A stretch of 56,796 nucleotides of DNA from an uncultured Bacteroidales bacterium (lineage in GTDB: Bacteria; Bacteroidota; Bacteroidia; Bacteroidales; Bacteroidaceae): positions 1 through 56,796 of the forward strand of contig CACWTU010000014.1 in assembly GCA_902763885.1 (NCBI GenBank). Reading direction: 5' to 3'. A program made the translations under genes and the position numbers. The notes under the pieces were generated by a model that was given only the letters and a program-made list of their open reading frames with translations, made no database searches and was not told the origin of the DNA. Of the stretch, positions 3,840 through 31,413 are shown one piece after another (positions within the stretch are counted from its first letter, which is position 1; every line of letters starts with the position of its first letter).

Positions 3840-4186
3840 GGGGCACAAAGGGGACGGTTCTTTTTGTGCCCCTATGAAGATAATCCAAGGTGCGCAGAAC
3901 TTTTGGGGTATCGGTATCGGAAACCATGGCCGCCCGTGGGCTTGTGAACCGACGAAGGAAGCGAGAGTAGAGAAAGCTTGTTTTCTATACCGAGCGACGA
4001 GGAGGAAAAACGTAGTTTAACGGGAGGGGCCCGTGCCTAAGAAAATGCTCTGGAAGGTAGGAGTTTACTCATGCCTTTCAGAGCGTCTTATTAGGGATGG
4101 GAGGGATAGCGCGAAGCGCGTAGTTTCAGATACTGATACCCCAAAAGTTCTCCTCAAAAAGAGGGGCACAAAAAGAACCGTCCCCT
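3840..4186. repeat. REPIN 2 with a 290-bp insert bearing its own terminal inverted repeats
   Basis: The left unit is intact (3840-3872). The right unit (4163-4186) lacks its outer arm, where recA coding sequence takes over. The 290-bp interior is bounded by inverted termini at 3896-3918 and 4129-4151 (AGAACTTTTGGGGTATC then R-GTATC). The same termini, with about 15-25 further matching bases on each side, bound the interior of the pair at 31054-31413, while the central sequences differ. The centre shows hairpin potential (for example GCTCTGGAAGG with CCTTTCAGAGC). No convincing gene lies in it. This fills the whole dnaK-recA intergenic region. Confidence 0.85.
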
Positions 4187-5253
4187 ATTTCGGAGTCATC
4201 ATCCGGCTCCGGAGCCTGCGGACTGCCAAGGATGGCAGCCATGATTTTCTGCTCCAGCTCCTCCGCCAGTTCAGGATTATCCTGCATAACCTGCTTGGCA
4301 GCATCGCGTCCCTGTGCCAGACGCGTATCGCCATAACTGAACCATGAGCCGCTCTTCTTGATGATGCCGTACTCCACACCCAGGTCAACAATCTCGCCGG
4401 ATTTAGAGATGCCCTCGCCGAACATGATATCGAACTCAGCCTTGCGGAAAGGAGGCGCCACCTTATTCTTAACAACCTTGACGCGAACCTGGTTACCAAC
4501 CACCTCATCGCCGTCCTTGAGAGATGTTACACGGCGGATATCCAGACGGACCGATGCGTAGAACTTGAGCGCATTACCACCAGTTGTGGTCTCAGGATTG
4601 CCGAACATCACGCCAATCTTTTCACGCAACTGGTTGATAAAGATGCAGGTAGTGTTTGTCTTGTTGATAGTCGATGTAAGTTTGCGCAGAGCCTGGCTCA
4701 TCAGACGTGCCTGCAGACCTACCTTGTTGTCACCCATATCGCCTTCAATCTCAGCCTTAGGGGTAAGCGCTGCCACACTGTCTATCACAATGATATCGAT
4801 GGCGCTTGAACGGATAAGCTGCTCAGCAATCTCCAGAGCCTGCTCACCGTTATCGGGCTGTGAAATCCAAAGGTTATCAATATCCACGCCCAATTTTGAA
4901 GCGTAGAATCGGTCAAAAGCATGCTCAGCATCAATGAAAGCCGCAATGCCGCCATTCTTCTGAGCCTCAGCAATGGCATGAATGGCAAGAGTGGTCTTAC
5001 CTGATGATTCGGGACCGTAGATCTCAATTATACGTCCGCGCGGGTATCCGCCCACGCCAAGCGCGGCATTAAGGCCGATGGAACCGGTTGAGATGACATC
5101 GACATTCTCAATGTTCTCATCACCCAGTTTCATGATTGAACCTTTACCGAAACTTTTCTCAATTTTGTCAGTTGCTGCCTGCAGGGCCTTGAGTTTTTCG
5201 CTAAGCCCGGCATTCTGAAGGCCTGACCCGCCCTCAATCTCTTTTTTTGCCAT
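4126..5253 (-). CDS. recA: Recombinase RecA with a repeat-derived C-terminal tail
   Basis: RecA is the DNA-dependent ATPase for strand exchange and SOS coprotease activity. The core is complete: Walker [10 protein letters not shown] at residues 80-88, Walker [11 protein letters not shown], loop L2 around [22 protein letters not shown]. The native acidic tail reads ...PEPDDDSEI, then the frame runs into the right unit of the adjacent REP pair (GDGSFCAP) and its inverted terminus ([11 protein letters not shown]) before stopping. The last 19 residues (357-375) are therefore mobile-element sequence, which makes the protein about 375 residues instead of the usual 345 or so. The tail of RecA is regulatory and tolerant of change, so the protein is probably active. 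The SOS operator was not recognised upstream. Confidence 0.98.
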
Positions 5254-5357
5254 AAGTATTAATGGTTTAAATTATCAAATCCCGAAGAGTGTTCTTCACA
5301 GTATCTCTCCAGCAGAGCACCACTTTGATGCTCCAATCGCAAAGATAAGAAAAAACA

Positions 5358-5391
5358 AATTGAAAATTGAGAATTGAAAATTGAAAATTTT
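5358..5391. repeat. AATTGAAAATTGA-type repeat
   Basis: An imperfect tandem of AATTGAAA and AATTGAGA units between the divergent recA and tex genes. The same motif recurs at 17956-17990, 18031-18061, 42186-42209 and 42279-42317, in inverted pairs at the last two loci. Confidence 0.75.
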
Positions 5392-5392
5392 T

Positions 5393-5421
5393 GGCACATT
5401 AGGGACAGTCCCCTTTGTGCC
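5393..5421. repeat. Variant REP hairpin (GGCAC-type arms)
   Basis: GGCACATTAGGGACAG followed by TCCCCTTTGTGCC forms a near-palindrome. It shares the GGGAC..GTCCC core with the main REP family but has different arms, and occurs singly upstream of tex. Confidence 0.75.
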
Positions 5422-5429
5422 ATTTTGAT

Positions 5430-5437
5430 TAAATTTG
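5430..5437 (+). promoter_or_regulatory. -7 box (TAAATTTG) of tex
   Basis: Exact match to the Bacteroidetes TAnnTTTG -7 element, ending 5 bases before the chosen tex ATG, so the message would be almost leaderless. No TTG lies at the preferred -33 spacing. Confidence 0.45.
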
Positions 5438-5442
5438 CAAAT

Positions 5443-7581
5443 ATGAATAAGGAATACATTTCGATTATTGTCCGTGAGACCGGCCTCAAAGAGCATCAGG
5501 TGGAGAACACCCTGAAATTGCTGGAGAACGGCGCCACTATACCTTTTATAAGCCGTTACCGCAAGGAATCAACCGGCGGCATGGATGAGGTGCAGGTTAC
5601 AGAGGTGAGCAATGCGCTGGAGCGTCTGGATGCGCTAGCCAAGCGTAAGGAGACCGTGCTGAGCACCATCGAGGGGCTGGACAAGCTTACTCCGGAGCTT
5701 AAGGAGCGCATAGAGCACTGCTGGGACGCCACAGAACTTGAGGACATATACGCCCCCTACAAACCGCACCGCAAAACCCGCGCCGATGCCGCCCGCGAGC
5801 GTGGTCTGGAGCCACTGGCCGAGTTCGTGATGAAACAGAATGCATACGTTCCGCTGGACCGCGAGGCCAAGAAATACGTAAGCAAGGAGAAAGGCGTGGA
5901 GAGCGTTGACGATGCGCTCCAGGGAGCGATGGACATCATTGCCGAGCAGGTCTCACTTGATGAAGGCACGCGCAATCAGGTCCGCAACGCCTACCGCCGC
6001 ACCGCCCGCATATACAGCAAGCTCGTCCGCGGTAAGGAGGCCGATGCCCAGAAATACCGCGACTGGTTTGATTTCAATGAGCCTCTGAACCGATGCGCAT
6101 CGCACCGTCTGCTGGCCATGCGCCGCGGTGAGACTGAAGGGATGCTCCGTGTATCGATAGAGATTGATGATGACAAGACGGTCGATTCACTGTCACGCCA
6201 TTATGTACGCGGCAAGTCAGAGGCATCGGAACTGGTTGATGAGGCAGTGCAGGATTCATACTACCGCCTGCTGCAACCATCTATTGAAAATGAGTTCGCC
6301 GCATCGTCGAAGAACGCAGCTGACATGGAGGCGATACGGATATTCGCCCGTAATCTGGAGCAGTTGCTGATGGCATCGCCATTGGGCCAGAAGGCTGTAA
6401 TGGGCATCGACCCCGGCTTCAGGACCGGCTGCAAGGTGGTATGCCTGGACCAGCAGGGCACGCTCCTGCACAACGAGACCATCTACCCCCACCCGCCCCA
6501 CAACGAGGCACGCCAATCGGCCGCAAAGATACAGGCACTCGTAGAGCAATACAAGATTGAAGCCATAGCCATCGGAAACGGCACTGCAGGCCGCGAGACC
6601 AAGGATTTCATAGAGCACCTGCGTCTGCCGGCAAGCGTACAGATTTTCAGCGTGAATGAGGATGGAGCCTCTATCTACTCCGCCTCCAAGACTGCCCGCG
6701 ACGAGTTCCCTGACTATGACGTCACGGTGCGCGGAGCCGTGTCTATCGGACGACGTCTGATGGACCCGTTGGCAGAGCTGGTCAAGATTGACCCGTCATC
6801 AATAGGTGTAGGCCAGTATCAGAAGGATGTGAATCAGACTGAACTCAAGCACTCGCTTGACCAGACAGTGATAAGCTGCGTGAACCGCGTGGGAGTGAAC
6901 GTGAATACCGCCAGCACCCACCTTCTTACATATATAAGCGGACTGGGACCTCAGCTGGCGCAGAATATTGTGGATTACCGCACCGAGAACGGCCCGTTCC
7001 AGTCCCGCAAGGAGCTGATGAAGGTGCCGCGCATGGGAGCCAAAGCCTTTGAGCAGTCAGCGGGATTCCTGCGCGTGCCGGGCGGCAAGCAACCCCTTGA
7101 CAACTCAGCCGTTCACCCGGAGAGCTATCCCATCGTTGAGCAGATGGCAAAAGACCTGGGCTGCAAGGTTGAGGACCTGATGAAAAGCCCCGAGCTCCGC
7201 GCCAGGATTGACATAAACCGATATGTGACTGACAAGGTTGGACTCCCCACCCTGACTGACATAATGCAGGAACTGGAGAAACCGGGACGTGACCCGCGCG
7301 GCCCGCTGAAGAAGTTCGAGTTCTCCAATGAGGTCCACACCATTGAGGATGTCAAGGCCGGCATGGTTCTCCCCGGAATAGTAAGCAACATCACAAACTT
7401 TGGAGCCTTTGTAGACATAGGCGTGCACGTAAAAGGCCTCATCCACGTCTCCCAGCTGGCTCCCGGCAAGTTCATCAAAGACCCCACCCAGGTAGTCTCC
7501 CTCCAGCAGCAGGTAATGGTAAAAGTCCTGAGCGTGGACTTGGAACGCCAGCGCATCAGCCTCACCCTCACCCTAGAATAG
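5443..7581 (+). CDS. tex: Tex-family RNA-binding protein (S1 domain)
   Basis: A 712-residue Tex homologue. An N-terminal Tex domain is followed by the YqgF/RNase H-like fold (MGIDPGFRTGCKVV around residue 345), helix-hairpin-helix motifs (ISGLGPQLAQNIVDYR and the KVPRMGAKAFEQSAGFLR stretch) and a C-terminal S1 domain (GMVLPGIVSNITNFGAFVDIGV) that binds RNA. Tex proteins take part in transcription and RNA metabolism; the exact role in Bacteroidales is not established. The frame is open upstream to 5374, but those codons translate repeat sequence, so MNKEYISIIVRETGLKE at 5443 is taken as the start. The stop TAG uses the first G of the following REP unit as its last base. Confidence 0.96.
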   Translation: MNKEYISIIVRETGLKEHQVENTLKLLENGATIPFISRYRKESTGGMDEVQVTEVSNALERLDALAKRKETVLSTIEGLDKLTPELKERIEHCWDATELEDIYAPYKPHRKTRADAARERGLEPLAEFVMKQNAYVPLDREAKKYVSKEKGVESVDDALQGAMDIIAEQVSLDEGTRNQVRNAYRRTARIYSKLVRGKEADAQKYRDWFDFNEPLNRCASHRLLAMRRGETEGMLRVSIEIDDDKTVDSLSRHYVRGKSEASELVDEAVQDSYYRLLQPSIENEFAASSKNAADMEAIRIFARNLEQLLMASPLGQKAVMGIDPGFRTGCKVVCLDQQGTLLHNETIYPHPPHNEARQSAAKIQALVEQYKIEAIAIGNGTAGRETKDFIEHLRLPASVQIFSVNEDGASIYSASKTARDEFPDYDVTVRGAVSIGRRLMDPLAELVKIDPSSIGVGQYQKDVNQTELKHSLDQTVISCVNRVGVNVNTASTHLLTYISGLGPQLAQNIVDYRTENGPFQSRKELMKVPRMGAKAFEQSAGFLRVPGGKQPLDNSAVHPESYPIVEQMAKDLGCKVEDLMKSPELRARIDINRYVTDKVGLPTLTDIMQELEKPGRDPRGPLKKFEFSNEVHTIEDVKAGMVLPGIVSNITNFGAFVDIGVHVKGLIHVSQLAPGKFIKDPTQVVSLQQQVMVKVLSVDLERQRISLTLTLE

Positions 7582-7687
7582 GGGCACAAAGGGGACGGTT
7601 CTTTTTGTGCCCCTCTATAGAGACTCTCGATAACCGTACTTGAATAAAAAAACAGGGGCACAAAAAGAACCGTCCCCTTTGTGCCCT
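7581..7687. repeat. REPIN 3, upstream of the RAYT gene
   Basis: Units at 7581-7613 and 7655-7687 with a 41-bp spacer. The first G is also the last base of the tex stop codon. The right unit ends in T instead of C. The spacer (AGAG...ACTTGAATAAAA) is homologous to that of the pair at 10192-10296, so the pair plus spacer was copied as one element. Confidence 0.95.
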
Positions 7688-7744
7688 TTGTTTTTCAACT
7701 TTTTTATGTAACTTGCGAATCTAATTTGAAAAACAGATAAATCT

Positions 7745-8536
7745 ATGCCCAGACAATCTAGAATTACCAGTCAGTCCGGATTATACCATGTTATGCTCAG
7801 AGGTATAAACAAGCAGGACATTTTTGAGAGTAAAGATGATTATTGGAAGTTTATCAAACTGATGTACCATATGTGTCATCCGCTTGATGAAACCGATAGT
7901 CCGGTTCCACCCCATTGTTGCTTATACGCATATTGCCTGATGCCGAATCATGTGCACCTTTTAATTAAGGATTATGACGGAAGCTTGGCAGAATTAATTA
8001 AAAGCCTGGCAATTCCATATGCACATTATTTCAACAAGAAATATGAAAGGATAGGACACTTTTTTCAGGACAGATTCAGAAGTGAACCGGTCAATGATTG
8101 GGAGTACTTTGTAACATTACTCCGATACATCCATCAGAATCCCGTGGCGGCTAATCTGGTATCGGACATTAACGATTATACGTGGAGTAGTTGGCGTGAA
8201 TACGTAAATCCAAGCCGATGCTCCCTGCCTGTATGCGCCACTCAATCGGTTCTGACTAAACTTCCGATTGATGAACTGAAGGCCCTTGTTGCCGAACCTT
8301 TACCTAAAGCTCAGAGAATCCTTGAAATCAACAACACTAATTCCCGTATCGATGACGATATGGTGCTGAATTATATAGTTTACATATGCGGGGCCGATTA
8401 CATTGAAGTAATTAATCATTATCAGTTGTATGAAAAAAGAGAATTGATTAGAAAGATTCTGGAATTCGGCGCCAGCATGAGACAGATATCACGACTGACC
8501 GGCCTAAGCGTCAAAACAATTCGCCTCGCTCAATGA
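7745..8536 (+). CDS. REP-associated tyrosine transposase (RAYT, IS200/IS605-like Y1 family)
   Basis: A 263-residue single-strand DNA transposase-like protein. The N-terminal signature is SGLYHVMLRGINKQDIF. The metal-binding HUH motif is seen as MPNHVHLL (about residues 74-81), and the catalytic tyrosine is expected in the helix YAHYFNKKYERIGHFFQDRF. The stretch LLRYIHQNPVAANLV is also typical. The C-terminus ends in a helix-turn-helix (MRQISRLTGLSVKTIRLAQ). RAYTs lack IS ends and act on REP sequences; here the gene is flanked 57 bp upstream and 17 bp downstream by REP pairs, and no other transposase is in the window. The start at 7745 gives the expected N-terminus. Whether it is still active cannot be told from sequence. 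Confidence 0.93.
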   Translation: MPRQSRITSQSGLYHVMLRGINKQDIFESKDDYWKFIKLMYHMCHPLDETDSPVPPHCCLYAYCLMPNHVHLLIKDYDGSLAELIKSLAIPYAHYFNKKYERIGHFFQDRFRSEPVNDWEYFVTLLRYIHQNPVAANLVSDINDYTWSSWREYVNPSRCSLPVCATQSVLTKLPIDELKALVAEPLPKAQRILEINNTNSRIDDDMVLNYIVYICGADYIEVINHYQLYEKRELIRKILEFGASMRQISRLTGLSVKTIRLAQ

Positions 8537-8553
8537 TCTTGAGGGGCACTTGA

Positions 8554-8691
8554 GGGGCACAAAGGGGACGGTTCTTTTTGTGCCCCTATAAAAAATCTCC
8601 ACTTCCGCGCAAAAACGTGTAAAAGGGGACTGTCCCCAATTACACATTAAAAAAAACAGGGGCACAAAAAGAACCGTCCCCTTTGTGCCCC
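8554..8691. repeat. REPIN 4, downstream of the RAYT gene
   Basis: Units at 8554-8586 and 8659-8691. The left flank has an 11-bp tandem copy (TTGAGGGGCAC at 8539-8549 and 8550-8560). The 72-bp spacer holds another palindrome at about 8612-8643 (GTGTAA arm, core AAGGGGACTGTCCCCAA, arm TTACAC), a further arm variant of the same core. The right flank CCCCTCAACCTCGCTGC is nearly identical to the right flank of the pair at 10192-10296. Confidence 0.93.
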
Positions 8692-8711
8692 TCAACCTCG
8701 CTGCTTTTGAT

Positions 8712-8719
8712 TAATTTTG
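8712..8719 (+). promoter_or_regulatory. -7 box (TAATTTTG) of pgeF
   Basis: Matches TAnnTTTG and ends 4 bases before the ATG. No -33 TTG at the right spacing; the transcript would be leaderless if this box is used. Confidence 0.4.
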
Positions 8720-8723
8720 CGGT

Positions 8724-9413
8724 ATGAGCGACAGGCTTCTCAAATATGATATGGGGGCAGGCGTGGAGGCGTTCAGCACGGAGCGGGACGCTGAACTGCC
8801 TTACTATGTGGTGCAGCCTCATCAGGTACACGGGTGTGAAATACGGGAAGTTACTGACCCGATGACTACGCGCGCACAACTGGAAGGGGTGGATGCTCTC
8901 ATTACCAATGTGCCGGACGTGGCGATATCGGTCCGAACGGCCGATTGCATTCCGGTGCTGCTTTATGATGCTGTGCATAAGGCTGTTGCGGCGGTACATG
9001 CGGGCTGGCGCGGTACCGTGCAGCATATTTCTCAAAAGACGATAGAGGTGATGCACCAATTGTACGGGACCGATGCGAAAGATCTATGCGCGGTTATCGG
9101 ACCGGGTATCGGCCCTGAGAGTTTTCAGGTGGGGCCGGAGGTTGCGGATGAGTTCCTCAAAGCCGGTTTTCCAATGGGTGAGATTCTAGAGGATTGCGGC
9201 CCTAAGGCTCCGACAAAGCATAATCCGATGCGGGGAGGCTTGCATATCGATCTTTGGCAGGCAAACCGATGGCTTTTGGAACAAGCAGGAGTACAATCTA
9301 CAAACATTCAGGTGGCTGGAATCTGCACCTATAAGAATAACGACCGCTTTTATTCTGCCAGGCGTGAGGGACTTAAGTGCGGCCGCATAATCAATTGCAT
9401 CAAACTGTTATAA
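8724..9413 (+). CDS. pgeF: Peptidoglycan editing factor / laccase-domain purine nucleoside phosphorylase
   Basis: A 229-residue protein of the YfiH/PgeF (Cu-oxidase_4, DUF152) family. The metal-site residues lie in VQPHQVHG, RTADCIPVLLYD and AAVHAGWRGT, that is the conserved His, Cys and His, followed by CAVIGPGIGPESFQVG. Members act in the cytosol as purine nucleoside phosphorylase/adenosine deaminase enzymes and, in E. coli, keep L-Ser out of peptidoglycan precursors. The start is supported by the common N-terminal pattern LLKYDM...EAFST. A rho-independent terminator follows, so it looks monocistronic. Confidence 0.93.
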   Translation: MSDRLLKYDMGAGVEAFSTERDAELPYYVVQPHQVHGCEIREVTDPMTTRAQLEGVDALITNVPDVAISVRTADCIPVLLYDAVHKAVAAVHAGWRGTVQHISQKTIEVMHQLYGTDAKDLCAVIGPGIGPESFQVGPEVADEFLKAGFPMGEILEDCGPKAPTKHNPMRGGLHIDLWQANRWLLEQAGVQSTNIQVAGICTYKNNDRFYSARREGLKCGRIINCIKLL

Positions 9414-9419
9414 ACAAAC

Positions 9420-9456
9420 AAAGTCCGACGGTAATCCATCGGACTTTGTTTTGTTT
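9420..9456 (+). terminator. Rho-independent terminator of pgeF
   Basis: AAAGTCCGA and TCGGACTTT form a 9-bp stem, followed by GTTTTGTTT, 6 bases after the pgeF stop. Confidence 0.85.
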
Positions 9457-9465
9457 AGAAAAAAA

Positions 9466-10131
9466 TTACTTCTCGCAGTCTGAGCCGATCATCTTCCAGA
9501 GGCCGGCAGCAAGTGCACCGCCGCACAGAGGAGCTACGATGAATATCCAGAGCTGGCTCAGGGCAGCACCGCCTGCAAAGATGGCGGGACCGATTGAGCG
9601 GGCCGGGTTGACTGATGTTCCGGTGTAACGGATGCAGACCAGATGAACCAGAACCAGTGACAGACCTATTGCCAGACCTGCAAAATTACCTGCGCCCTTC
9701 TTGGCATCGGTAGTACCAAGAACAACCAGTACAAATACGCAGGTGAATACCAACTCGGCAATAAAGCCTACGCCTGTGCTAATGCCCTCCTGGCATGCGT
9801 TCTCACCAAGTCCGCCCGGGGTGATGGCGAATAGGATTGCAGCACCGATAATAGCACCGATAACCTGGAAAATCATGTACATTATGGCATCCTTGCCGCT
9901 CATACGGCCTGAGAGCCAAACGCCCAGTGTGATTGCTGGATTGATGTGGCAGCCCGAAATGCCGCCAATGGCATATGCCATTGCTACAACGGCAAGACCA
10001 AATGCAAGAGCAGTTCCAACTACGCCGGGAACGCCTACGCCGGCAGGTGTGCAACCCAGGCTGACGGCTGCGCCGCAACCCATGAGAACCAGAACCATAG
10101 TTCCGATCATCTCAGCTAAGTACTTCTTCAT
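9466..10131 (-). CDS. aqpZ: Aquaporin Z (MIP family water channel)
   Basis: A 221-residue channel with six membrane segments and the two half-helix NPA motifs (HINPAITLG and SVNPARSIGPA). The His before the first NPA region and the Arg after the second fit the narrow, water-selective filter of AqpZ. It acts in the inner membrane in osmotic water flux. The frame is open for 16 more codons upstream, but MKKYLAEMIGTMVLVLMG at 10131 is the standard N-terminus. It is transcribed convergently with pgeF. Confidence 0.96.
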   Translation of the reverse strand: MKKYLAEMIGTMVLVLMGCGAAVSLGCTPAGVGVPGVVGTALAFGLAVVAMAYAIGGISGCHINPAITLGVWLSGRMSGKDAIMYMIFQVIGAIIGAAILFAITPGGLGENACQEGISTGVGFIAELVFTCVFVLVVLGTTDAKKGAGNFAGLAIGLSLVLVHLVCIRYTGTSVNPARSIGPAIFAGGAALSQLWIFIVAPLCGGALAAGLWKMIGSDCEK

Positions 10132-10191
10132 AAATATCGTTTTAGTTAGTAAATAGGTTAAACTAGCGCTAAGATACACTTTTTTTTACAA

Positions 10192-10296
10192 AGGGCACAA
10201 AAGGGACGGTTCTTTTTGTGCCCCTAATAGAGAGTCTTGCTAACCAAACTTGAATAAAACACAGGGGCACAAAAAGAACCGTCCCCTTTGTGCCCC
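10192..10296. repeat. REPIN 5
   Basis: Units at 10192-10224 (left arm degenerate: AGGGCACAAAA) and 10264-10296, spacer 39 bp. The spacer AATAGAGAGTC...ACTTGAATAAAA matches that of the pair at 7581-7687. It lies between the aqpZ start and the terminator of the SIS gene. Confidence 0.93.
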
Positions 10297-10309
10297 TCAA
10301 ACTCGCTGC

Positions 10310-10345
10310 AAAAAAAAGAAAGGCCGGCTAACACAAGCCGACCTT
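10310..10345 (-). terminator. Terminator of the SIS-domain gene
   Basis: On the minus strand AAGGTCGGCT and AGCCGGCCTT pair (one G-U) and are followed by TCTTTTTTTT; about 30 bp after the stop codon. Confidence 0.8.
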
Positions 10346-10375
10346 CCCAGGAATCAAAAACTTTAAAAATTATAT

Positions 10376-11392
10376 TCAGAGTTGAATCTCGTTACCAACC
10401 TTGCGGGCACGATTAGGATGATCCAGATCCATACCGGTAGCGATACCGATCTCAACCAGCACATTCCAACCTGCGCACAGATAAACGTAAGGATTGAAAT
10501 CACCGGCAGCGGGAGTCTTGATGGTGGGGAACGGAGTGTCGTGATCGGCAATAGCCACAACCTTCACGCCGGCACCCTTGATGAGGCAGTCCTGAATCTT
10601 CTGATACTCATCGGCAATAGGATCAACCCAGAAGATGATGTCACCCTCCTTCATAACCTCCTCAATTCCGTGAAGAGCGTATGTGCCCTCCAGGAAATCG
10701 CTCTTGCGGCGGGTAATCTCATTGGTCTTAAGGGTAAGTTCCTCAGCAACACCGTCATTGTAACCGGCAAAGTAGATTGTCTCAGCCTTCTTGACCCACT
10801 CTACGATCTCAGCAGGAACCTGAAGCGTGAGAGCCTTCTCAATCTGAGCAGGAAGAGCAGCCAGACCGGCCTTTACGTCCTTGCCAGCGATATTCCACAG
10901 AACTGACTCATAGTAGAGAGCCTGCTCCACAACGCTCTTGGTAGCGGCTACAGCCTGCTCCCAACCGCAGTTGAGTACATGTGTATTGGCGCAGAAAGTA
11001 GAGAGGATGGTGCCCTCATTGGCGGTCAGGCCAAAACGGAGAGGATTGCCCTCCTCCATCAGCTTCTTGGCCAGCAGTGTAACCTCCTTGGTACGGCCGG
11101 AGTTCGATGCCAAGAATACGGCAAACTTGCTCAGGTCATACTCACGTGACTGCCATGAACCATCGGTCTGGGCATTAAGGTCGATACCCCAACGCTTGGT
11201 CTTGCGCAGAGCGTTCTTGGCGGGGAAAATACGGCTTGAACCCTCACCGGTAAAATAAGCCTTGCCGGCCTTCTTAACCTGTTCAGCAATCTGCTTGGTG
11301 CAAGCGGGATCAAACTTCTTTACAGTCTCTACTGTGTCCATCATCTCCTGTACGAGTGCGTACTGAGAATACTTTTTGTCTGTAAGATTCAT
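10376..11392 (-). CDS. SIS-domain sugar-phosphate-binding protein
   Basis: A 338-residue protein with two SIS (sugar isomerase) folds, as in the isomerase half of GlmS and in AgaS-type proteins. The first has GEGSSRIFPAKNA and FLASNSGRTKEV, typical of the phosphosugar-binding loop; the second covers about residues 195-330. There is no glutaminase domain, so it is not GlmS itself. A role in phosphosugar isomerisation or deamination in the cytosol is likely, but the substrate is not visible. It follows the DUF4954 gene on the same strand with 153 bp between, which includes a REP pair, so the two may be co-transcribed. Confidence 0.85.
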   Translation of the reverse strand: MNLTDKKYSQYALVQEMMDTVETVKKFDPACTKQIAEQVKKAGKAYFTGEGSSRIFPAKNALRKTKRWGIDLNAQTDGSWQSREYDLSKFAVFLASNSGRTKEVTLLAKKLMEEGNPLRFGLTANEGTILSTFCANTHVLNCGWEQAVAATKSVVEQALYYESVLWNIAGKDVKAGLAALPAQIEKALTLQVPAEIVEWVKKAETIYFAGYNDGVAEELTLKTNEITRRKSDFLEGTYALHGIEEVMKEGDIIFWVDPIADEYQKIQDCLIKGAGVKVVAIADHDTPFPTIKTPAAGDFNPYVYLCAGWNVLVEIGIATGMDLDHPNRARKVGNEIQL

Positions 11393-11433
11393 ATTATAAT
11401 TGTTATAAGTTGTTGTTCATTCTTTAAAACGGA

Positions 11434-11533
11434 GGGGCACAAAGGGGACGGTTCTTTTTGTGCCCCTACCCTAAATAACGCCAATTGGATTCTGCACTCA
11501 GGGGCACAAAAAGAACCGTCCCCTTTGTGCCCC
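11434..11533. repeat. REPIN 6
   Basis: Units at 11434-11466 and 11501-11533, spacer 34 bp. The spacer (TAAATAACGCCAATTGG...ACTCAGG) is homologous to that of the pair at 50061-50165. It lies 12 bp past the DUF4954 stop codon. Confidence 0.95.
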
Positions 11534-11545
11534 AATCCAATTGTA

Positions 11546-14425: not shown

Positions 14426-14434
14426 AATAGTATG

Positions 14435-24298: not shown

Positions 24299-24311
24299 AA
24301 GAATAAGGATT

Positions 24312-25070
24312 ATGAAGAATACCCTCATGATACTTTTGATTCCGTTTTTTGGAACTGCGCTTGGATCAGCGTTTGTGTTCTTTATGCGGAAAGAGATGCC
24401 GGCTCTGCTTCAGAAAATCCTGCTTGGATTTGCATCGGGCGTAATGGTGTCAGCATCATTCTGGTCACTGATTATCCCGGGAATGGACATGGGCGGCATA
24501 AAGCCATCAACGATAGGCCTGCTGGCTGGTTTTGCATTCCTGCTGCTTATAGACCGCATAACCCCTCACCTGCACCCTACCGGAAGCGCCGAGGGCCCCA
24601 AAAGCAAACTGTCCAGAACAGCCATGCTGGCTCTGGCTGTAACGATACACAACTTCCCTGAGGGAATGGCCGTGGGCGTAGGCCTGGCCGGAGCAATGAG
24701 CAGCGGCGTCAATATGACAGGTTCCGCAGCGTTTGCACTTGCACTCGGTATTGCCATTCAGAACATCCCCGAGGGAGCAATCATATCAATGCCCCTGCGC
24801 GCAGCAGGCAACAGCCGTCTTAAATCATTCTGGATAGGTGCTCTGAGCGGAATAGTTGAACCCATAGGCGCTATTCTGGTGATACTGCTTGCTGCATTCT
24901 TTACACCCATAATGCCGTTCATGCTCACATTTGCGGCAGGTGCAATGCTGTATGTAGTCGTTGAGGAGCTTATTCCGGAGGCATCAGAGGGTGAACATTC
25001 CAATATAGGTACCATAGGTTTTGCGCTTGGTTTTGCGCTTATGATGGTGCTTGACGTTGTTTTAGGATAA
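24312..25070 (+). CDS. ZIP family metal transporter
   Basis: A 252-residue inner-membrane protein with eight predicted segments. The metal-pathway motifs of ZIP proteins are seen in segment 4 (HNFPEGMAVGVG) and segment 5 (QNIPEGAIISMPL), plus EELIPEASEGEHS near the end. It should import Zn2+ or another divalent cation. There is no long His-rich loop, only HLHPTG. It is ZupT-like but substrate range cannot be read from sequence. Confidence 0.93.
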   Translation: MKNTLMILLIPFFGTALGSAFVFFMRKEMPALLQKILLGFASGVMVSASFWSLIIPGMDMGGIKPSTIGLLAGFAFLLLIDRITPHLHPTGSAEGPKSKLSRTAMLALAVTIHNFPEGMAVGVGLAGAMSSGVNMTGSAAFALALGIAIQNIPEGAIISMPLRAAGNSRLKSFWIGALSGIVEPIGAILVILLAAFFTPIMPFMLTFAAGAMLYVVVEELIPEASEGEHSNIGTIGFALGFALMMVLDVVLG

Positions 25071-25076
25071 TATTTT

Positions 25077-27527
25077 ATGAAACATTTTAGTTGCTTTTCC
25101 ATAATCATAGCGTTGTTGCTGTCAGGAGTTACACAGGCACAGATTATCCCCAGCGCTAACCCTAAGGCTGACTCCGTTGCATTTGCCAAGGTCCGTGCAA
25201 GAATGGATTCAATACGTCAATACCGCCCTACCGTAGGTCTGGTCCTGGCCGGCGGCGGTGCGCGTGGAATGGCACATTTAGGAGTAATAAAGTACATTGA
25301 AGAGTTGGGAATCCCGGTTGATGTGGTAACCGGCACCAGCATGGGTGGTCTGTTGGGCGGTCTGTATGCATTGGGATACAGGCATGACCAGCTGGATTCA
25401 CTGGTACGTGATATAAACTGGCCCGTGATGATGTCAGACAATGTGCCCGATGAATATGTTTCATACAAGATGAAGACATATCAGGAACAGTACCTGATCC
25501 GCATTCCTTTCCATTATAAGAACAAAGACCTGGCACAGAGTCAGGAACTGGAACGTGTGGCAGAGATAATGGCTGAGGAGGCTGGCCTGAGTTCAACCGA
25601 TATGCTTCATGAGTCAATTTCCAGAATGGGACTGGGATTGCCTGACGGCGTCCTGTACGGACTCAACGTCCGTAATCTGCTCAGTTCAGTGAGCGTAGGT
25701 TACCAGGACAGCATAAGTTTTGCCGATCTGCCTATACCGTTTGCATGCGTAGCTACTGACCTTTATACCCTGACGCCTAAATACTGGACAAGCGGCAACA
25801 TAACGACGGCATTACGCTCCACAATGGCCATTCCATTCTATTTCAGGGCCGTGCGTGACAAAGGAACTGTTCTGCTGGACGGCGGCATGCGTAACAACTT
25901 CCCGGTTGACCTGGCCCGTGAGATGGGCGCCGACATTATCATCGGCTCGGATATGACCATCCACCGTAAGCTGAACGAGCTGAACTCACCGGCATCTTTC
26001 CTGATGCAGACAATCGTCCTGCTGGCATCCACCGCAATGGGCCCCGCAATGGAAATGCTTGACCTTAACGTACATCATGAACTTCCAGGCTATACCATGC
26101 TTTCATTTGATGACAAAAGTGTTGATGACATAATTGACCAAGGCTATCGTAATGCATTACAGCACAAGGAGTTCTTTGAAAGCATTGCCTCTAAGGTATC
26201 AGGCAAGGGAGAGCCTAAGGTATCACATCCGGCGCCTTCAGTGAACCTGGCACAACAGAAAGTACGGGTGAGCCAGGTGCTTTTTACCGGAATCCGCCAG
26301 GACGAAAAGGAGAATATCCTGCACAAAAGCGCCTATCCGGAAGACAGCCTGTATGACAAAACCATTGTGGAGAAAATGCTGCACAGCATTTATGGTACAA
26401 ATGCATTTGAATCAGTAACATACCATCTGGAAGGTAAAACTGAACCATATACCCTGGTATTTGACTGCCAGAAAGGTCAGATAAATGATTTTGCCCTTGG
26501 TTTAAGGGCCGATACAGATGAGGCTGTTGAGGCAGCTTTATACTTAGGGCTTGGAACACGCCAGCTGTCAGGCCCGCGTCTGGCTGTCAACCTTGTACTG
26601 GGCGTTGACCCGTCGCTGACATTGGAAGGATCCCTTAAGCCCAAGATAGGACTCCCCTCCATAGGGATATCGGCCCAAGCCAAGCTTATCAATACATCAA
26701 TGGGATACATGTTTGATACCAATGAAAAGCTCTTCTCCACAAAATATGACGTATATTTTGAGGATTCCAGAATGACATACGGATCTTTCAGAATAGGACT
26801 CACAGCTGAGATGAATCCGTATGAACGTTATCTGAATGAATTTGAATTCCGCGACAGATGGGATTGGAAGAGTTACTGGCTCTCAACCTTTGCTGCTCTG
26901 AAGTTCAGCACCTTTGATGACTGTTATTTCCCTCAGCGTGGCATCCGTGGCTCCATAAAAGGCCGATATGTCTTTAAAGGATATTACAACACAGGACTGT
27001 CAGAACTGGACCAGGACATATATCACCTGCTTGGTGAATATGCCGCAGACTTCGGTTCTGTTACGCCATACGGAGTAGTATCTGCGAGCCTTGAAGCGGC
27101 ATTGTCACCTGGAAAGCGTCTCACCTTTCTACCGAGCATCTATGTAGGGTGGTATTTTGACGATAATTCGGTTTATATGAATCCCAAGCATATCCCTGCA
27201 TCTGGTGGCTTCATGGCTGAAAGGTTTGTTGAGAACCAGATGCCGTTCTTTGGATTCCCCTCAGGATTCCGCTATTGCTGGCCATTGAGTACGACAGCCC
27301 AAATAGATACGCGTTATCGTTTTTACGGTAAGAATTATCTGACTGTGCGTGCCGGAATGTTCAAAGACGGAAACACCGTAGATGATTTGCTTAAATTTGA
27401 CCCCATTTACGCTTATGGCGCTGAGTATTCACGCCAGACTATAGTAGGTCCGCTCAAGATTGCCGCCCAATGGAGCAATTTTTATCCGGGCTTCAGCGTC
27501 TATGCCTCCATCGGCTTCGATTTCTAA
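25077..27527 (+). CDS. Patatin-like phospholipase fused to an outer-membrane barrel
   Basis: An 816-residue protein. A signal peptide (to about residue 22) precedes a patatin domain with oxyanion motif GGGARGMAH, nucleophile elbow GTSMG (S88) and catalytic Asp in LLDGGMRNNFPVD. Residues about 395-475 look like a POTRA unit (VSQVLFTGIRQDEKENIL...), and the last 300 or so residues are strand-rich and end in YASIGFDF, as in Omp85/type Vd barrels (PlpD-like). The likely product is a surface-exposed or periplasmic lipase held by its own barrel. The gene stop is followed by a GAGTACC hairpin pair. Confidence 0.93.
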   Translation: MKHFSCFSIIIALLLSGVTQAQIIPSANPKADSVAFAKVRARMDSIRQYRPTVGLVLAGGGARGMAHLGVIKYIEELGIPVDVVTGTSMGGLLGGLYALGYRHDQLDSLVRDINWPVMMSDNVPDEYVSYKMKTYQEQYLIRIPFHYKNKDLAQSQELERVAEIMAEEAGLSSTDMLHESISRMGLGLPDGVLYGLNVRNLLSSVSVGYQDSISFADLPIPFACVATDLYTLTPKYWTSGNITTALRSTMAIPFYFRAVRDKGTVLLDGGMRNNFPVDLAREMGADIIIGSDMTIHRKLNELNSPASFLMQTIVLLASTAMGPAMEMLDLNVHHELPGYTMLSFDDKSVDDIIDQGYRNALQHKEFFESIASKVSGKGEPKVSHPAPSVNLAQQKVRVSQVLFTGIRQDEKENILHKSAYPEDSLYDKTIVEKMLHSIYGTNAFESVTYHLEGKTEPYTLVFDCQKGQINDFALGLRADTDEAVEAALYLGLGTRQLSGPRLAVNLVLGVDPSLTLEGSLKPKIGLPSIGISAQAKLINTSMGYMFDTNEKLFSTKYDVYFEDSRMTYGSFRIGLTAEMNPYERYLNEFEFRDRWDWKSYWLSTFAALKFSTFDDCYFPQRGIRGSIKGRYVFKGYYNTGLSELDQDIYHLLGEYAADFGSVTPYGVVSASLEAALSPGKRLTFLPSIYVGWYFDDNSVYMNPKHIPASGGFMAERFVENQMPFFGFPSGFRYCWPLSTTAQIDTRYRFYGKNYLTVRAGMFKDGNTVDDLLKFDPIYAYGAEYSRQTIVGPLKIAAQWSNFYPGFSVYASIGFDF

Positions 27528-27530
27528 AAA

Positions 27531-27606
27531 GAGTACCATTGGGGTCTGTCCCCTTTGGTATCATTTTCAAAAAGAGTACCAAAGGGGACAGACCCCAATG
27601 GTACTC
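27531..27606. repeat. Inverted pair of GAGTACC-arm hairpins (second copy)
   Basis: Units at 27531-27563 and 27574-27606, in the opposite order to those at 19805-19880. The first begins 3 bases after the patatin gene stop; its right arm is degenerate (TGGTATCA). Confidence 0.9.
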
Positions 27607-27714
27607 TTTTTTCAAAAAATGACAAGGTATGCGAATGTTTCCCGGCCGGAGGCCGGCCCGTTTCCGTTAGGAAACTAAAAAAAGGTTTGGATGCTGACCG
27701 CTTATCCATCCTAC
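27607..27714. other. Intergenic region with a hairpin shared with 19956-20126
   Basis: CCCGGCCGGAGGCCGG is followed by GTTTCC-GTTA-GGAAAC and TAAAAAAAGGTT (27660-27687). Apart from these I see no gene. It lies between the patatin gene and the SRP RNA terminator. Confidence 0.6.
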
Positions 27715-27742
27715 AAAGAAAAGGAGGCCCAATGAGGCCTCC
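27715..27742 (-). terminator. Terminator of the SRP RNA gene
   Basis: Minus strand: GGAGGCC and GGGCCTCC form a stem with loop TCATT or so, followed by TTTTCTTT. It starts 10 bases after the 3' closing stem of the SRP RNA. Confidence 0.88.
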
Positions 27743-27751
27743 TTGTAGGAT

Positions 27752-27848
27752 GGGTAAGCTGACTGCATCGCGCCGCTACAACCGACGTACCTTTGCTGCC
27801 GTCAAGCCCTGGAGGGTTGGAAGGGAGCTGGCCGTGTAGGACTTACCC
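27752..27848 (-). ncRNA. ffs: Signal recognition particle RNA (4.5S-like, small type)
   Basis: Read on the minus strand, GGGUAAG (27848-27842) pairs with CUUACCC (27758-27752), enclosing a 97-nt hairpin RNA. The apical SRP domain is CCAGGGCUUGACGGCAGCAAAGG: the symmetric-loop strands CAGG and AGCAA flank a short stem GCU/GGC closed by a UGAC tetraloop. UGAC is a known substitute for the usual GGAA loop at the Ffh-binding site. The 3' side (GUCGGUUGUAGCGGCGCGAUGCAGUC) follows the conserved SRP pattern. A promoter and a rho-independent terminator in the right places fix the strand. The RNA binds Ffh and targets membrane proteins to the Sec translocon. Confidence 0.9.
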
Positions 27849-27852
27849 GCTG

Positions 27853-27882
27853 CGAAGATACTGCTTTTATTTGAAACTGCAA
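27853..27882 (-). promoter_or_regulatory. Promoter of the SRP RNA gene
   Basis: Minus strand TTG (27882-27880), 19 bases, then TATCTTCG (27860-27853), one base off TAnnTTTG. The expected start is at the GGGUAAG that begins the RNA. Confidence 0.75.
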
Positions 27883-27931
27883 TCCACATTCAAAAGAAAT
27901 GACTAAATTTGCATTTCTGAAAAGAAAAGAG

Positions 27932-28525
27932 ATGGAAGAGCAGAACGGAAACAAGGTAATAAGAATCAACCTGATGCAGGTGTCCATGACACTGGGCACA
28001 TATCTCGGGCTATACATTATCCTGGCGTATGCCTTCACTTTGCTCTCCGTAAAGTTCAGCGCACTCTCAGCAGTTGCCATGATACTTATGCTTGGCATTC
28101 CCGTGATTGCTTTCTTTCTCATCAAACGCTTCCGTGATGCCAACTGCAAGCCTTTCTTCCCTTTCCCGGTATCGTGGATGATATCTATCCTTACCTTCCT
28201 GTTCGCTACGATGCTCTCCTGCATGGCCGCATATCTTTACCTGCGTTTCATTGACAACGGAGCATTTGCAGCAGGCTTGATGGAACGCATGGACATGATT
28301 ATGTTGGCATCAGGCTCTGCAGCCCAGGAGTTTACAGATCCCGCTCAGGCAGAACAGTACAACTCAACAATGGAACTGCTCAAACAGACCATAACATGGT
28401 TCTGTTCACTCCCGGCATCGGGTATGACCAAGCAGCTTGTACAGACATCGCTCATGTGGGGCAATATCCTGTCACTTGTCATAGCAATCATTACCACAAA
28501 AAGGATCAGACTCAAACAAGAATAA
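27932..28525 (+). CDS. DUF4199 family membrane protein
   Basis: A 197-residue inner-membrane protein with about four membrane segments (LGTYLGLYIILAYAFTLL, ALSAVAMILMLGIPVIAFFL, PVSWMISILTFLFATMLSCM, and NILSLVIAIITT), typical of Bacteroidetes DUF4199 proteins found just before a GT2 glycosyltransferase. Its function is unknown. An in-frame ATG at 27899 exists, but a TAAATTTG -7 box (27904-27911) lies between the two ATGs, which favours MEEQNGNK at 27932. Four bases separate it from the glycosyltransferase gene. Confidence 0.8.
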   Translation: MEEQNGNKVIRINLMQVSMTLGTYLGLYIILAYAFTLLSVKFSALSAVAMILMLGIPVIAFFLIKRFRDANCKPFFPFPVSWMISILTFLFATMLSCMAAYLYLRFIDNGAFAAGLMERMDMIMLASGSAAQEFTDPAQAEQYNSTMELLKQTITWFCSLPASGMTKQLVQTSLMWGNILSLVIAIITTKRIRLKQE

Positions 28526-28528
28526 AAT

Positions 28529-29485
28529 ATGGACCTTTCTATCATAGTACCGCTTCTGAATGAGGCCGAATCAATTCCTGAGCTTTACGCCTGGATATCA
28601 AGAGTCATGACTGAGAACAAATTCAGCTATGAGGTGATTTTTGTTGATGACGGCAGTACCGATGGCTCTTGGGATATCATCGAAGGCCTTAAAGCCGATA
28701 ACCCCGACATCGTAAAAGGCATCAAGTTCCGCCGCAACTACGGTAAGTCCCCTGCCCTGTTCTGCGGATTCGATATGGCTCAGGGTGATATCGTGGTTAC
28801 TATGGATGCAGATCTTCAGGACAGCCCTGAGGAGGTGCCTGAGATGGTTCGCATGATTCGTGAAGATGGCTTTGACCTAGTATCGGGCTGGAAAAAGAAA
28901 CGCTATGACGGAAAGTTGAGCAAGAACATCCCGTCCAAGATATATAACTGGACCGCACGTAAGGTTACAGGATTGAGTCTGCATGACATGAACTGCGGTC
29001 TCAAGGCATACCGCCGTGACGTAGTCAAGAACATTGAGGTTTATGGTGAGATGCACCGTTACATACCGTTCCTGGCCAAGAATGCCGGATTCAGCAAGAT
29101 CGGCGAGAAGGTGGTTCACCACCAGGCACGAAAGTACGGCACAACCAAGTTTGGACTTGACCGCTTTGTAAACGGCTATCTGGACCTTATGTCACTCTGG
29201 TTCCTGAACCGCTTTGGCAAGCAGCCCATGCATTTCTTCGGTCTGTGGGGATCAGTAATGTTTGTGCTGTGTTTCATTGCCATAATCGTAATAGGCGCAT
29301 CCAAGCTATATGCAATATCACACGGGGTGCGAGCTGCTCTGATAACCAGCAATCCCTACTTCTATTTGGCTCTTACAGGTATGATTATGGGCACTCTCAT
29401 GTTCCTGGTTGGATTCCTGGCTGAGCTTGTGAGCCGCAGTTCACAGAACCGCAACGACTACAAGATTGAGAAGGAGCTCAAATAA
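28529..29485 (+). CDS. GT2 glycosyltransferase with C-terminal membrane segments (polyprenyl-phosphate type)
   Basis: A 318-residue protein. The GT-A domain begins LSIIVPLLNEAESIPEL, has DDGSTDGSWDII and the metal-binding DADLQDSPEEV. Two C-terminal hydrophobic hairpin segments (FGLWGSVMFVLCFIAIIVIGA and YFYLALTGMIMGTLMFLVGFLAEL) anchor it, as in DPG/ArnC/GtrB-like enzymes that load a sugar on undecaprenyl phosphate. The sugar is not deducible. It probably works with the DUF4199 protein encoded just upstream; mntP follows after 9 bases. Confidence 0.92.
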   Translation: MDLSIIVPLLNEAESIPELYAWISRVMTENKFSYEVIFVDDGSTDGSWDIIEGLKADNPDIVKGIKFRRNYGKSPALFCGFDMAQGDIVVTMDADLQDSPEEVPEMVRMIREDGFDLVSGWKKKRYDGKLSKNIPSKIYNWTARKVTGLSLHDMNCGLKAYRRDVVKNIEVYGEMHRYIPFLAKNAGFSKIGEKVVHHQARKYGTTKFGLDRFVNGYLDLMSLWFLNRFGKQPMHFFGLWGSVMFVLCFIAIIVIGASKLYAISHGVRAALITSNPYFYLALTGMIMGTLMFLVGFLAELVSRSSQNRNDYKIEKELK

Positions 29486-29494
29486 CCACTTGAT

Positions 29495-30070
29495 ATGTTG
29501 ATTGTTGAATTGATACTGCTCTCCATCGCATTGGCTATGGACTGCTTTACCGTATCAATCACATGCGGACTCATACAGCGTCGTCTGGTTACAAAGACCA
29601 TGCTCATAACCGCCCTGATGTTCGGTCTGTTCCAGGGCCTCATGCCGCTTATCGGATGGGCAGGCATCAGTTTCTTTAGCGATGCACTTGAACGCTGGGA
29701 TCATTGGATTGCATTCGGACTGCTTGGTTTTCTGGGCATACGCATGATTATCGGCGGCCTAAAGTCTGATGAAAAACAGAAGCCTTTTGACCCCACCAAG
29801 TTCTCTACGACCCTTACGATGGCCATAGCCACAAGCATTGACGCTCTGGCCGTAGGTCTTTCATTCGGTTGTACAGGATACGATACATTATCAAGCATTA
29901 TTCTGCCTATCACAATTATTGCCGTAGGCTCATTCCTGTTTTCCGCATTCGGGTTTGTTATCGGTGCCTATGTAGGCAGAAAGATCAGTTTCCCTGTAGA
30001 AATTCTGGCTGGTGTCATCCTGATTGTAATCGGCACCAAAATCCTTATAGAACACCTCACGGCTTTATGA
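29495..30070 (+). CDS. mntP: Manganese efflux pump MntP
   Basis: A 191-residue protein with six membrane segments in two homologous halves. Each half has the acidic motif of the family: LSIALAMDCFTVSI and IATSIDALAVGLSF. MntP exports Mn2+ to limit toxicity. No yybP-ykoY riboswitch is seen in the 9-bp gap upstream, so regulation would be with the upstream genes. The stop overlaps the apbE start (ATGA). Confidence 0.95.
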   Translation: MLIVELILLSIALAMDCFTVSITCGLIQRRLVTKTMLITALMFGLFQGLMPLIGWAGISFFSDALERWDHWIAFGLLGFLGIRMIIGGLKSDEKQKPFDPTKFSTTLTMAIATSIDALAVGLSFGCTGYDTLSSIILPITIIAVGSFLFSAFGFVIGAYVGRKISFPVEILAGVILIVIGTKILIEHLTAL

Positions 30071-31050
30071 AAAAGTGGCACTACCCATTCCTGGCTTTTC
30101 TGATAATCGGGACAATATTAATCCTTTCCAAAAGCAAGCAGACTGCGAATCCTGAGTATAGAAGTGCCCAAGGATTGGTATTCGGCACGCGATATAACAT
30201 AACATACCTTTATAATGACGACCTGAAGCCGGATATTGAAAAGACTCTGGCGCGCGTAGATAACGCCCTCTCCATGTTCAATCCGGAGTCAACCATATCT
30301 CGGGTAAATAATTATGAGGTAGTGCTGGTTAGTGACCCTCTCTTTCTGAAGGTGTTCCACCGCGCGATGGAAATATCGGAATGGACAAACGGCGCTTTCG
30401 ATATAACCGTAGCTCCTGCCGTCAATGCATGGGGGTTCGGATTCAAGCATGCTGAGAACATAAAGCAGTCCACTATTGACAGCCTGATGGAGATTACGGG
30501 GTATTGGAAGATTCATGAACTTGATGGCATGATTGAGAAGGATGATCCGCGCATCATGCTGGATTGCAGCGCCATAGCCAAGGGATTCGGCAGTGATATG
30601 GTGGCCGATATGCTCCGCTCCAAGGGCATTGATGACTTCATGGTGGAGATTGGCGGCGAGATTGTGGTATCGGGCCATAATCCCAAAGGCAAGCTCTGGA
30701 ACATAGGCATCAGCAAGCCGGTTGATGACTCACTCTCCGTAAACAATGAACTGCAGACCGTGATACCGGTTACAGACATAGCTATTGCCACATCAGGCAA
30801 CTACCGCAACTTCTACGTGAAGGACGGCCGCAAATACGCTCACACCATTGACCCGCACACCTGCATGCCGGTAAGCCACAGCCTGCTGTCAGCCACAGTC
30901 TTTGCCTCCGATTGCGCCACTGCCGACGCCCTGGCCACCTCAATGATGGTGATGGGCCTTGACAGCGCCCAGGCCCTCTGCGCCCGCCATCCCGAAATCC
31001 GCGCCTACTTCATCTACGAGGCTCCCGATGGCACAATAATGGCACAATAG
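30067..31050 (+). CDS. apbE: FAD:protein FMN transferase (ApbE)
   Basis: A 327-residue protein with one N-terminal membrane anchor/signal (YPFLAFLIIGTILIL). ApbE attaches FMN through a phosphoester bond to Thr in flavoproteins such as RnfG/NqrC. Visible motifs: FGTRYNITY, DNALSMFNPESTISRVN, GAFDITVAPAVNAWGFG, LDCSAIAKGFGSDMVAD, EIGGEIVVSG, and the C-terminal THTIDP-like YAHTIDPHTCMPV and ATADALATSMMVMG with the metal-binding Asp/Thr pair. The start at 30067 overlaps mntP by 4 bases. The REP pair begins 3 bases after the stop. Confidence 0.95.
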   Translation: MKKWHYPFLAFLIIGTILILSKSKQTANPEYRSAQGLVFGTRYNITYLYNDDLKPDIEKTLARVDNALSMFNPESTISRVNNYEVVLVSDPLFLKVFHRAMEISEWTNGAFDITVAPAVNAWGFGFKHAENIKQSTIDSLMEITGYWKIHELDGMIEKDDPRIMLDCSAIAKGFGSDMVADMLRSKGIDDFMVEIGGEIVVSGHNPKGKLWNIGISKPVDDSLSVNNELQTVIPVTDIAIATSGNYRNFYVKDGRKYAHTIDPHTCMPVSHSLLSATVFASDCATADALATSMMVMGLDSAQALCARHPEIRAYFIYEAPDGTIMAQ

Positions 31051-31053
31051 TGA

Positions 31054-31413
31054 GGGGCACAAAGGGGACGGTTCTTTTTGTGCCCCTATTTCTTGGAGAA
31101 CTTTTTGGGTATCAGTATCTGAAACTACGCAGAACTATCAGTTTGGGGAGACAACACCTCCAGGCTACTACGAACCCCTCCAGACCCTAAACGTCGAACT
31201 CGTCCTCATCGCCCCCTACGGGGTCGAACGTTCCTCAAACATGCGCCGTTCTTAACGGGATCTTCCGTGGGTTCTCCGCTTACGCCTTCCGGTAATGCTC
31301 CCCAAACTGATAGTTCTGCTTCTGCAAATAGGAAACTCCGATACCCCAAAAGTTCTGTGCACCTTGGATTATTATCAGAAGGGGCACAAAAAGAACCGTC
31401 CCCTTTGTGCCCC
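31054..31413. repeat. REPIN 7 with a 294-bp insert bearing nested inverted repeats
   Basis: Units at 31054-31086 and 31381-31413. The interior begins with the terminus AGAACTTTTTGGGTATC (31097-31113) and ends with its inverted copy (31340-31356). Inside that, GCAGAACTATCAGTTTGGGG and its perfect complement (31129-31150 and 31298-31319, 22 bp) form a second nested pair. Outer parts match the insert at 3873-4162 in inverted orientation, including GTATCTGAAACTACGC and CACCTTGGATTAT; the middle 140 or so bases do not. The centre has short hairpins (CCCCTACGGGG). No protein-coding signal is convincing in this 378-base gene-free stretch. Confidence 0.88.

Follow-up and report, generated by a model that had tools for sequence, protein, structure and literature searches.

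Long REPINs of an uncultured Bacteroidales bacterium appear to carry exchangeable structured modules

Why should two long hairpin-forming repeats on the same contig have nearly identical ends and share nothing recognisable in their centres? The question is raised by a contig of an uncultured Bacteroidales bacterium, analysed here over its full length of 56,796 nt (the window), in which two inverted pairs of repetitive extragenic palindromic (REP) sequences form long REPINs (REP doublets forming hairpins). We refer to these REPINs as site 1 and site 2, to the inner stem that they share as S1, and to their contents as cargo A and cargo B (Table 1). We consider it likely that REPINs of this kind have structured modules as cargo, that these modules can be acquired, exchanged and lost again, and that a transposase similar to the REP-associated tyrosine transposases (RAYTs), encoded in the same window, probably mobilises the REPINs.

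The two long REPINs are built alike up to their centres. Each consists of two inverted, hairpin-forming REPs, as expected of a REPIN, with arms that pair perfectly over 25 nt at site 1 and 35 nt at site 2 and are separated by 288 and 292 nt. Further inverted ends lie inside the arms and span 34 nt (88%) at site 1 (3891-3924/4123-4156) and 17 nt (94%) at site 2 (31097-31113/31340-31356). When site 2 is reversed, the left ends are identical at 34 of 35 nt (alignment score 65, compared to a best of 21 in 200 shuffles) and the right ends at 35 of 36 nt (67, compared to a best of 20 in 200 shuffles). The initial annotation had described paired REP arms with common inverted ends and unrelated centres, and as a whole this observation is confirmed. 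The shared ends are 97% identical over 35-36 nt on each side. The centres align with a score of 16, or 18 with one of them reversed, whereas shuffles give a mean of 16.9 and a best of 27. Since they score like shuffles, the centres are not recognisable as copies of one sequence. A second, nested inverted repeat of 22 bp, also described initially, is present at site 2 and is perfect (31129-31150/31298-31319). Two details need correction: the right REP at site 1 is incomplete, without the outer TTTGTGCCCC, and a size near 260 bp does not hold for all inner units, as 13 paired units in the source genome measure 131-268 bp end to end. The ends are not restricted to this genome; they have matches in 16 of 61 genomes (the source genome included), all of one genus. 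The inner ends also occur in metagenome-assembled genomes (MAGs) titled Bacteroidales, Bacteroidaceae or Prevotellaceae (for example, RUG476, RUG12511, UBA1182, RGIG7532), several of which come from ruminants according to their record titles. With up to three mismatches, AGAACTTTTGGGGTATC has five matches in the window, where 0.13 are expected, and 45 in the genome, compared to 12 for the reversed pattern.

Table 1. Features of the two long REPINs and related elements in the window
Feature	Position	Strand	Remarks
Window	whole contig G000:C14		part of a 2.71-Mb draft genome; G000 is the source genome
Left REP, site 1	3839..3873	+	25 nt (3849-3873) perfectly complementary to 4162-4186
S1 inner stem, left arm, site 1	3896..3918	+	
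Cargo A, site 1	3919..4127	+ (taken as RNA-like strand)	structured, with loop-to-strand pseudoknot
Optional module within A	3950..4019	+	here and in a minority of copies (comparison by eye)
S1 inner stem, right arm, site 1	4128..4151	+	
Right REP, site 1	4162..4186	-	outer TTTGTGCCCC absent
RAYT-like Y1 transposase gene	7745..8536	+	263 aa; same-family REPINs at 7590-7678 and 8563-8682
Left REP, site 2	31053..31087	+	arm pairing
S1 inner stem arm, site 2	31097..31113	+	
Cargo B, site 2	31129..31319	-	rod-like; nested 22-nt repeat is the closing stem
S1 inner stem, other arm, site 2	31340..31356	+	
Right REP, site 2	31380..31414	-	35-nt perfect complement of left REP
Short REPIN	35684..35765	+	one remnant S1 arm at 35718-35734; read as a deletion derivative; one of four retaining an arm

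The long REPINs belong to a larger REP family. With up to three mismatches, the REP core has 66 forward and 65 reverse matches in the source genome, G000. Among the 100 of these 131 matches that were listed for a census of pairs (the other 31 could add pairs), there are 44 inverted pairs and 12 unpaired matches. Measured from REP core to REP core, 32 of the 44 pairs span 52-120 bp and 12 span 211-350 bp. All 12 of the long pairs (>200 bp) contain cargo, A in nine cases and B in three, and an extra copy of A lies between REPs of variant sequence (C13:13253, by eye). Inverted REP doublets that form hairpins, same-family REPs that flank a transposase gene, and single REPs as remnants are all features of the known REPIN/RAYT systems (PMC3116915; PMC6006769). 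In contrast to the 12 long units found here, with their inner stem and module, the commonest spacings given there are 71 and 110 bp. The spacer is characterised there, not as a strict requirement, as typically short and less conserved than the REPs. REPINs with such cargo are not described in the literature searched, which comprised titles and abstract openings and included few subscription journals. Two short REPINs in the window (1659-1766 and 8563-8682) enclose small palindromes of different types (GGGGTCAGACCCC-like; GGGGACTGTCCCC-like), nested in their loops, which resemble the repeats adjoining the other two Y1 transposase genes of the genome. REPIN loops may therefore be landing places for other REPs. 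In G006:C28 (L122/L307) the REP arms have changed from the GTGCCC to the GCGCCC type, with the partner arm changed to match; the site is also a REPIN with A in G000.

A and B are separate families, each with a fold that is kept by compensatory change. A structured RNA with a hypervariable middle had also been proposed for the two elements, but this proposal does not fit: the central sequences fall into two separate families that are well conserved internally and have different covarying folds. Among the loci examined, and with partial matches counted, nhmmer found 63 distinct match sequences for B and 48 for A. B folds into a rod, with a closing stem of about 20 bp that varies in sequence between copies, followed by conserved internal loops. 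In 36 B sequences, 96.8% of the cells are paired and 41 of 58 pairs are changed on both sides. Doubly changed cells number 292; shuffled alignments give 74, and slid controls never more than 50. At site 2, the B covariance model matches 31151-31298 on the minus strand with 158.1 bits, a copy that is itself among the model sequences. The B core pattern occurs in 23 of the 61 genomes, all of the same genus, with 38 matches in G007 and 14 in G000. Several B copies carry additional or altered parts. A recurrent insert (CTTTTGCGTAGCAAAATAAAA...GCGTAGC) lengthens one internal stem in L167, L168, L173, L185, L190, L202 and L214, and another large module is present in L194 and L209. B relatives in other bacterial families (L216, L217, L220, L225) adjoin long hairpins, such as TTACTTTTTTGACC...GCAAAAAAGTAA in L216. 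Two of them, L220 and L225, have an apex shortened to TGTTTGAGCGTAGCGAGTT or a near copy of it.

The fold of A is branched. It contains a hairpin of four pairs, and pairing between the hairpin loop and a strand further downstream forms a pseudoknot. Across 20 distinct types, the hairpin's own arms are 96% paired, compared to 65% when arms are crossed between types, and those of the pseudoknot 99%, compared to 85%, in a test that is biased in that inclusion required at least three of the four hairpin pairs and the search pattern fixes most of the pseudoknot. The only variable pseudoknot pair is therefore the free test, and it is G-C, T-A or A-T in 19 of the 20 types. RNAalifold, applied to 29 A sequences, predicts 42 pairs, of which 19 are changed on both sides. 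Under the model structure, 98.9% of the cells are paired within the genus and 5 of 25 pairs are doubly changed; when other families are included this rises to 19 of 25, although the alignment used was itself fitted to the model. A structure written by hand, in which 66.0% of the cells paired and 3 of 30 pairs had changed on both sides, was rejected because its helices were out of register with the alignment, and it was replaced by the per-sequence test and the model structure.

The same stem can close over either family. Of 40 copies of A, 32 have S1 on both flanks, as do 13 of 48 copies of B but none of 4400 shuffled flanks; a looser tally, in which a match on one flank was enough, was set aside for this both-flank count. 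A second stem type flanks two B copies and also one A copy (L057, 372-539, by eye). As both stem types flank both A and B, one stem can evidently close over either centre.

Neither family depends on REPs for its occurrence. Within the genus there are copies of A without REPs (for example, L091, L098, L101 and L102) and likewise copies of B. The models were also run on 294 other genomes from the same order. B is matched in 7 of them (E up to 0.001) and A in 4 (E up to 0.01), all in other families, and genomes G214 and G244 are matched by both models; the E-values are rough. The A copies in other families lie within long outer stems that differ in sequence between genomes and have no visible REP (by eye). 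Of 345 genomes sampled from the phylum, each model matched G000 and none of the 344 others, with about 9-11 candidates scored per genome. Absence in these searches is weak evidence because of this limited number of candidates and because B is undercounted in G000, where the model gives 10 matches and the core pattern 14. No Rfam 15 family reaches its gathering score over A or B in the window copies and 14 other loci, and relaxed searches with the two window copies gave six and two matches, all far below gathering scores (best E 0.012).

Orthologous sites in related species differ in content. The flanks of 12 occupied sites served as queries, and 20 orthologous regions were taken, covering 10 of the 12 sites; L305 and L308 were set aside because they have no left-flank match, leaving 18 interpretable regions. 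In eight of these, REP, A and B are all missing: nothing is inserted in four (C6b, C4 and C2 in G020; C10 in G009), and four hold a short unrelated sequence (W1 in G021, C13b in G020, C4 in G022, C6a in G002). Three contain a single REP (C19 in G020, C7 in G009, C8 in G013), in agreement with the view of Bertels and Rainey (2011) that single REPs are remnants of doublets (PMC3116915). Four contain short REPINs, of the same family (W1 and C2 in G013) or of other REP families (C2 in G008, C7 in G020). B without REPs occupies two (C2 in G022, C19 in G008), and the last (C8 in G006) has a REPIN with A whose arms are altered yet complementary. Thus, the content of one site differs between related species. 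At C2, matches in five further genomes (G009, G021, G002, G011, G006) span the junction, with 204-206 bp per 209-211 query bases (from the match table only). The insert of window site 2 is found at the same place in G020. These comparisons, and the occurrence of the same REP and inner stem around either centre, fit well with the initial suggestion of a non-autonomous element with conserved ends and exchangeable cargo. Since related species show apparent intermediates (no unit, single REP, short REPIN, A and B), the gain, exchange and loss of cargo should be directly testable in a RAYT system.

Some short REPINs look like what remains after cargo has been lost. Four of 30 distinct short-REPIN interiors among the loci examined retain one S1 arm. 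In L026, L004 and L012 the left end appears to be joined to the right end (by eye), with TTGG at the junction in L004 and L012, and L030 reads as B minus its core (by eye). We read such short REPINs as probable deletions of long ones.

The best candidate for the mobilising enzyme is the transposase gene at 7745-8536. Its product matches Pfam Y1_Tnp (PF01797) with 40.2 bits (cut-off 23), and the gene is flanked by REPINs of the same REP family as the long ones, as a RAYT gene should be. The other two Y1 genes in G000 adjoin different repeats (by eye). The protein has the HUH and Y motifs of a RAYT transposase in the form NHVH and YIHQNP; these fit the motifs tabulated for RAYT subclass 2.6, which is described as mostly from Bacteroidetes and flanked by atypical secondary structures with copies elsewhere (PMC6006769). 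No recurrent open reading frame (ORF) was found around 80 loci beyond the element and apparent orthologous neighbours in the 12 largest groups; the two largest groups are the element read through, and the rest look like orthologous neighbours or one place taken twice. No autonomous element that matches A or B was found near the copies, and no full search for one was made.

We propose the following course of events. The two inverted REP hairpins would be moved in single-stranded form by a RAYT, most likely the product of 7745-8536, which would mobilise the long REPINs in trans. The REPIN loop would have taken up a second layer, the S1 inner stem of about 23-29 bp, closing over A or B. A and B are independent, dispersed non-coding families of Bacteroidales that would travel as cargo inside REPINs. 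Recombination or insertion at the stem could put B in the place of A, and the cargo could be lost when short direct repeats recombine and delete what lies between them, so that a short REPIN or one REP is left. The usual view of REPINs is that of minimal replicators whose spacer is inert. The spacers described here hold conserved, apparently exchangeable, RNA-like structures that are also found outside REPINs. The component parts of this proposal (two families with covarying folds, common ends, copies without REPs, and orthologous sites that have or lack the unit) are well supported, whereas mobilisation in trans, exchange at the stem and transcription are predictions.

Several points weigh against it. 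Transposition and transcription of the long REPINs and their cargo are, in our analysis, readings drawn from sequence. The transposase scores 55.1 bits against NCBIfam REP_Tyr_transpos, below the cut-off of 80, and for this reason we call it RAYT-like. At some sites the occupied and empty versions have differences beyond the insert itself, and inspection of the orthologous sites by eye revealed no target duplication. Different elements at one site in several species could reflect repeated insertion at a favoured site and not cargo exchange; either is possible. The structures of A and B were derived from the same sequences that were used for the pair counts. Strand signals are also uneven. The wobble to A-C ratio for the S1 stem is 14:9, and because this bias is small, S1 may be kept as a DNA palindrome. 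When A is folded from the reverse strand, 40 cells are G-U and 25 are A-C, so that the strand call is weaker than for B.

Do the folds of A and B matter as RNA or as DNA? Wobble and A-C cells were counted for the given strand, using those columns whose most frequent pair is of the Watson-Crick type. B has 53 wobble and 13 A-C cells (22:2 in the closing stem), and A has 20 and 10 (6:1 in the core). Folded from the reverse strand, B has 16 G-U and 54 A-C cells. Folds of single sequences are more stable on the given strand for all 29 A and all 36 B sequences. Given the symmetry of a REPIN, selection on transposon DNA would account less readily than RNA for a signal on one side. This is an inference, and it draws on B more than on A or S1. 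On this basis A and B are predicted to be transcribed. We tentatively suggest, at somewhat less than even odds, that A and B represent two families of folded RNA that are transcribed, native to Bacteroidales and so far missing from catalogues, and that they spread as passengers, sitting at the apex of long DNA hairpins (including REPINs) and changing from one stem to another. If so, a RAYT system could serve as the vehicle for exchangeable RNA modules. As structured families without a match in Rfam 15, the two are in any case new material for the annotation of RNA in Bacteroidales.

Alternatively, A and B could be DNA elements with long terminal repeats, similar to miniature inverted-repeat transposable elements (MITEs), that came to lie in REPIN loops by chance, with folds that matter only as DNA and perfect stems kept by correction between arms. 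We regard this as possible but somewhat doubtful. It shares everything except the RNA part with our best explanation, and the probabilities that we assign to the two are not exclusive. The copies are many and dispersed, their long flanking stems differ between genomes, their orientation to genes in tandem settings is near even, and the strand bias of S1 is weak. L118, L126 and L124 (G005:C2:65335-66522) have additional sequence within a REP arm. The mirrored occurrence of this sequence in the two arms of L124 suggests copying from arm to arm. MITEs such as those of Porphyromonas gingivalis are likewise small, non-coding and dispersed, with terminal inverted repeats (PMC4596501). In contrast to such elements, A and B have a strongly covarying internal fold, and the sequence of their terminal stem varies between genomes. 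Against a role as DNA alone, compensatory change extends to small internal helices and the pseudoknot, the wobble in B is one-sided, and the loci have no recurrent ORF apart from the element and apparent orthologous neighbours in the 12 largest groups.

A cis-acting role is improbable. A and B would then be untranslated-region RNAs, terminators or stabilisers of the neighbouring genes, that were duplicated together with REPINs. Gene context was scored for 83 copies, leaving out short matches and copies with less than 650 bp on either side or without an ORF on both sides (90 codons, within 600 bp). There is some excess at convergent gene ends (32 copies, with 14 divergent), and median distances to genes are 51-154 bp. 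Against a cis role, copies in tandem settings have their predicted RNA strand in sense orientation 20 times and in antisense orientation 17 times, and the unit is absent from several sites in close relatives. Gene orientation thus speaks against a cis role.

It is very improbable that A or B is a guide RNA of the TnpB/IscB type or is copied by a reverse transcriptase (RT) like a bacterial short interspersed element (SINE). HEARO RNA, the omega RNA of IscB, is a multi-copy, ORF-less, structured RNA within a mobile element, and the many dispersed structured copies without an ORF recall both it and SINEs. The source genome also has two matches to the RT domain (1.6e-11 and 3.9e-9). However, unlike HEARO, A and B reach no Rfam gathering score, and no TnpB domain exceeds the cut-off in 21 genomes, including G000 and G007, with one match below the cut-off in G009; IscB was not searched for. 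The RT domain occurs in 6 of the 21 genomes, G001 among them, and was not found in G002-G006, in G008-G012 or in B-rich G007, which has the most listed B matches. The searches, in draft genomes that are 62-97% complete, thus gave neither TnpB nor RT as a consistent partner of A or B. An artefact of binning or assembly is extremely unlikely: some of the copies from other drafts are located at the end of a contig or contain runs of N, but MAGs from more than one collection have the inner ends (RUG, UBA, RGIG, Reindeer), and the site 2 insert is identical in place in G000 and G020.

Pneumococcal BOX elements offer a further comparison. They, too, are dispersed repeats of modular build that can form stem-loops, and some of their inner modules are optional. 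The modules here differ in being enclosed by REPs and carried on shared stems. The window itself also contains structured RNAs of known families: an Rfam scan found the Bacteroidales small signal recognition particle (SRP) RNA, and there is a cobalamin riboswitch (RF00174) at 44362-44573 on the minus strand.

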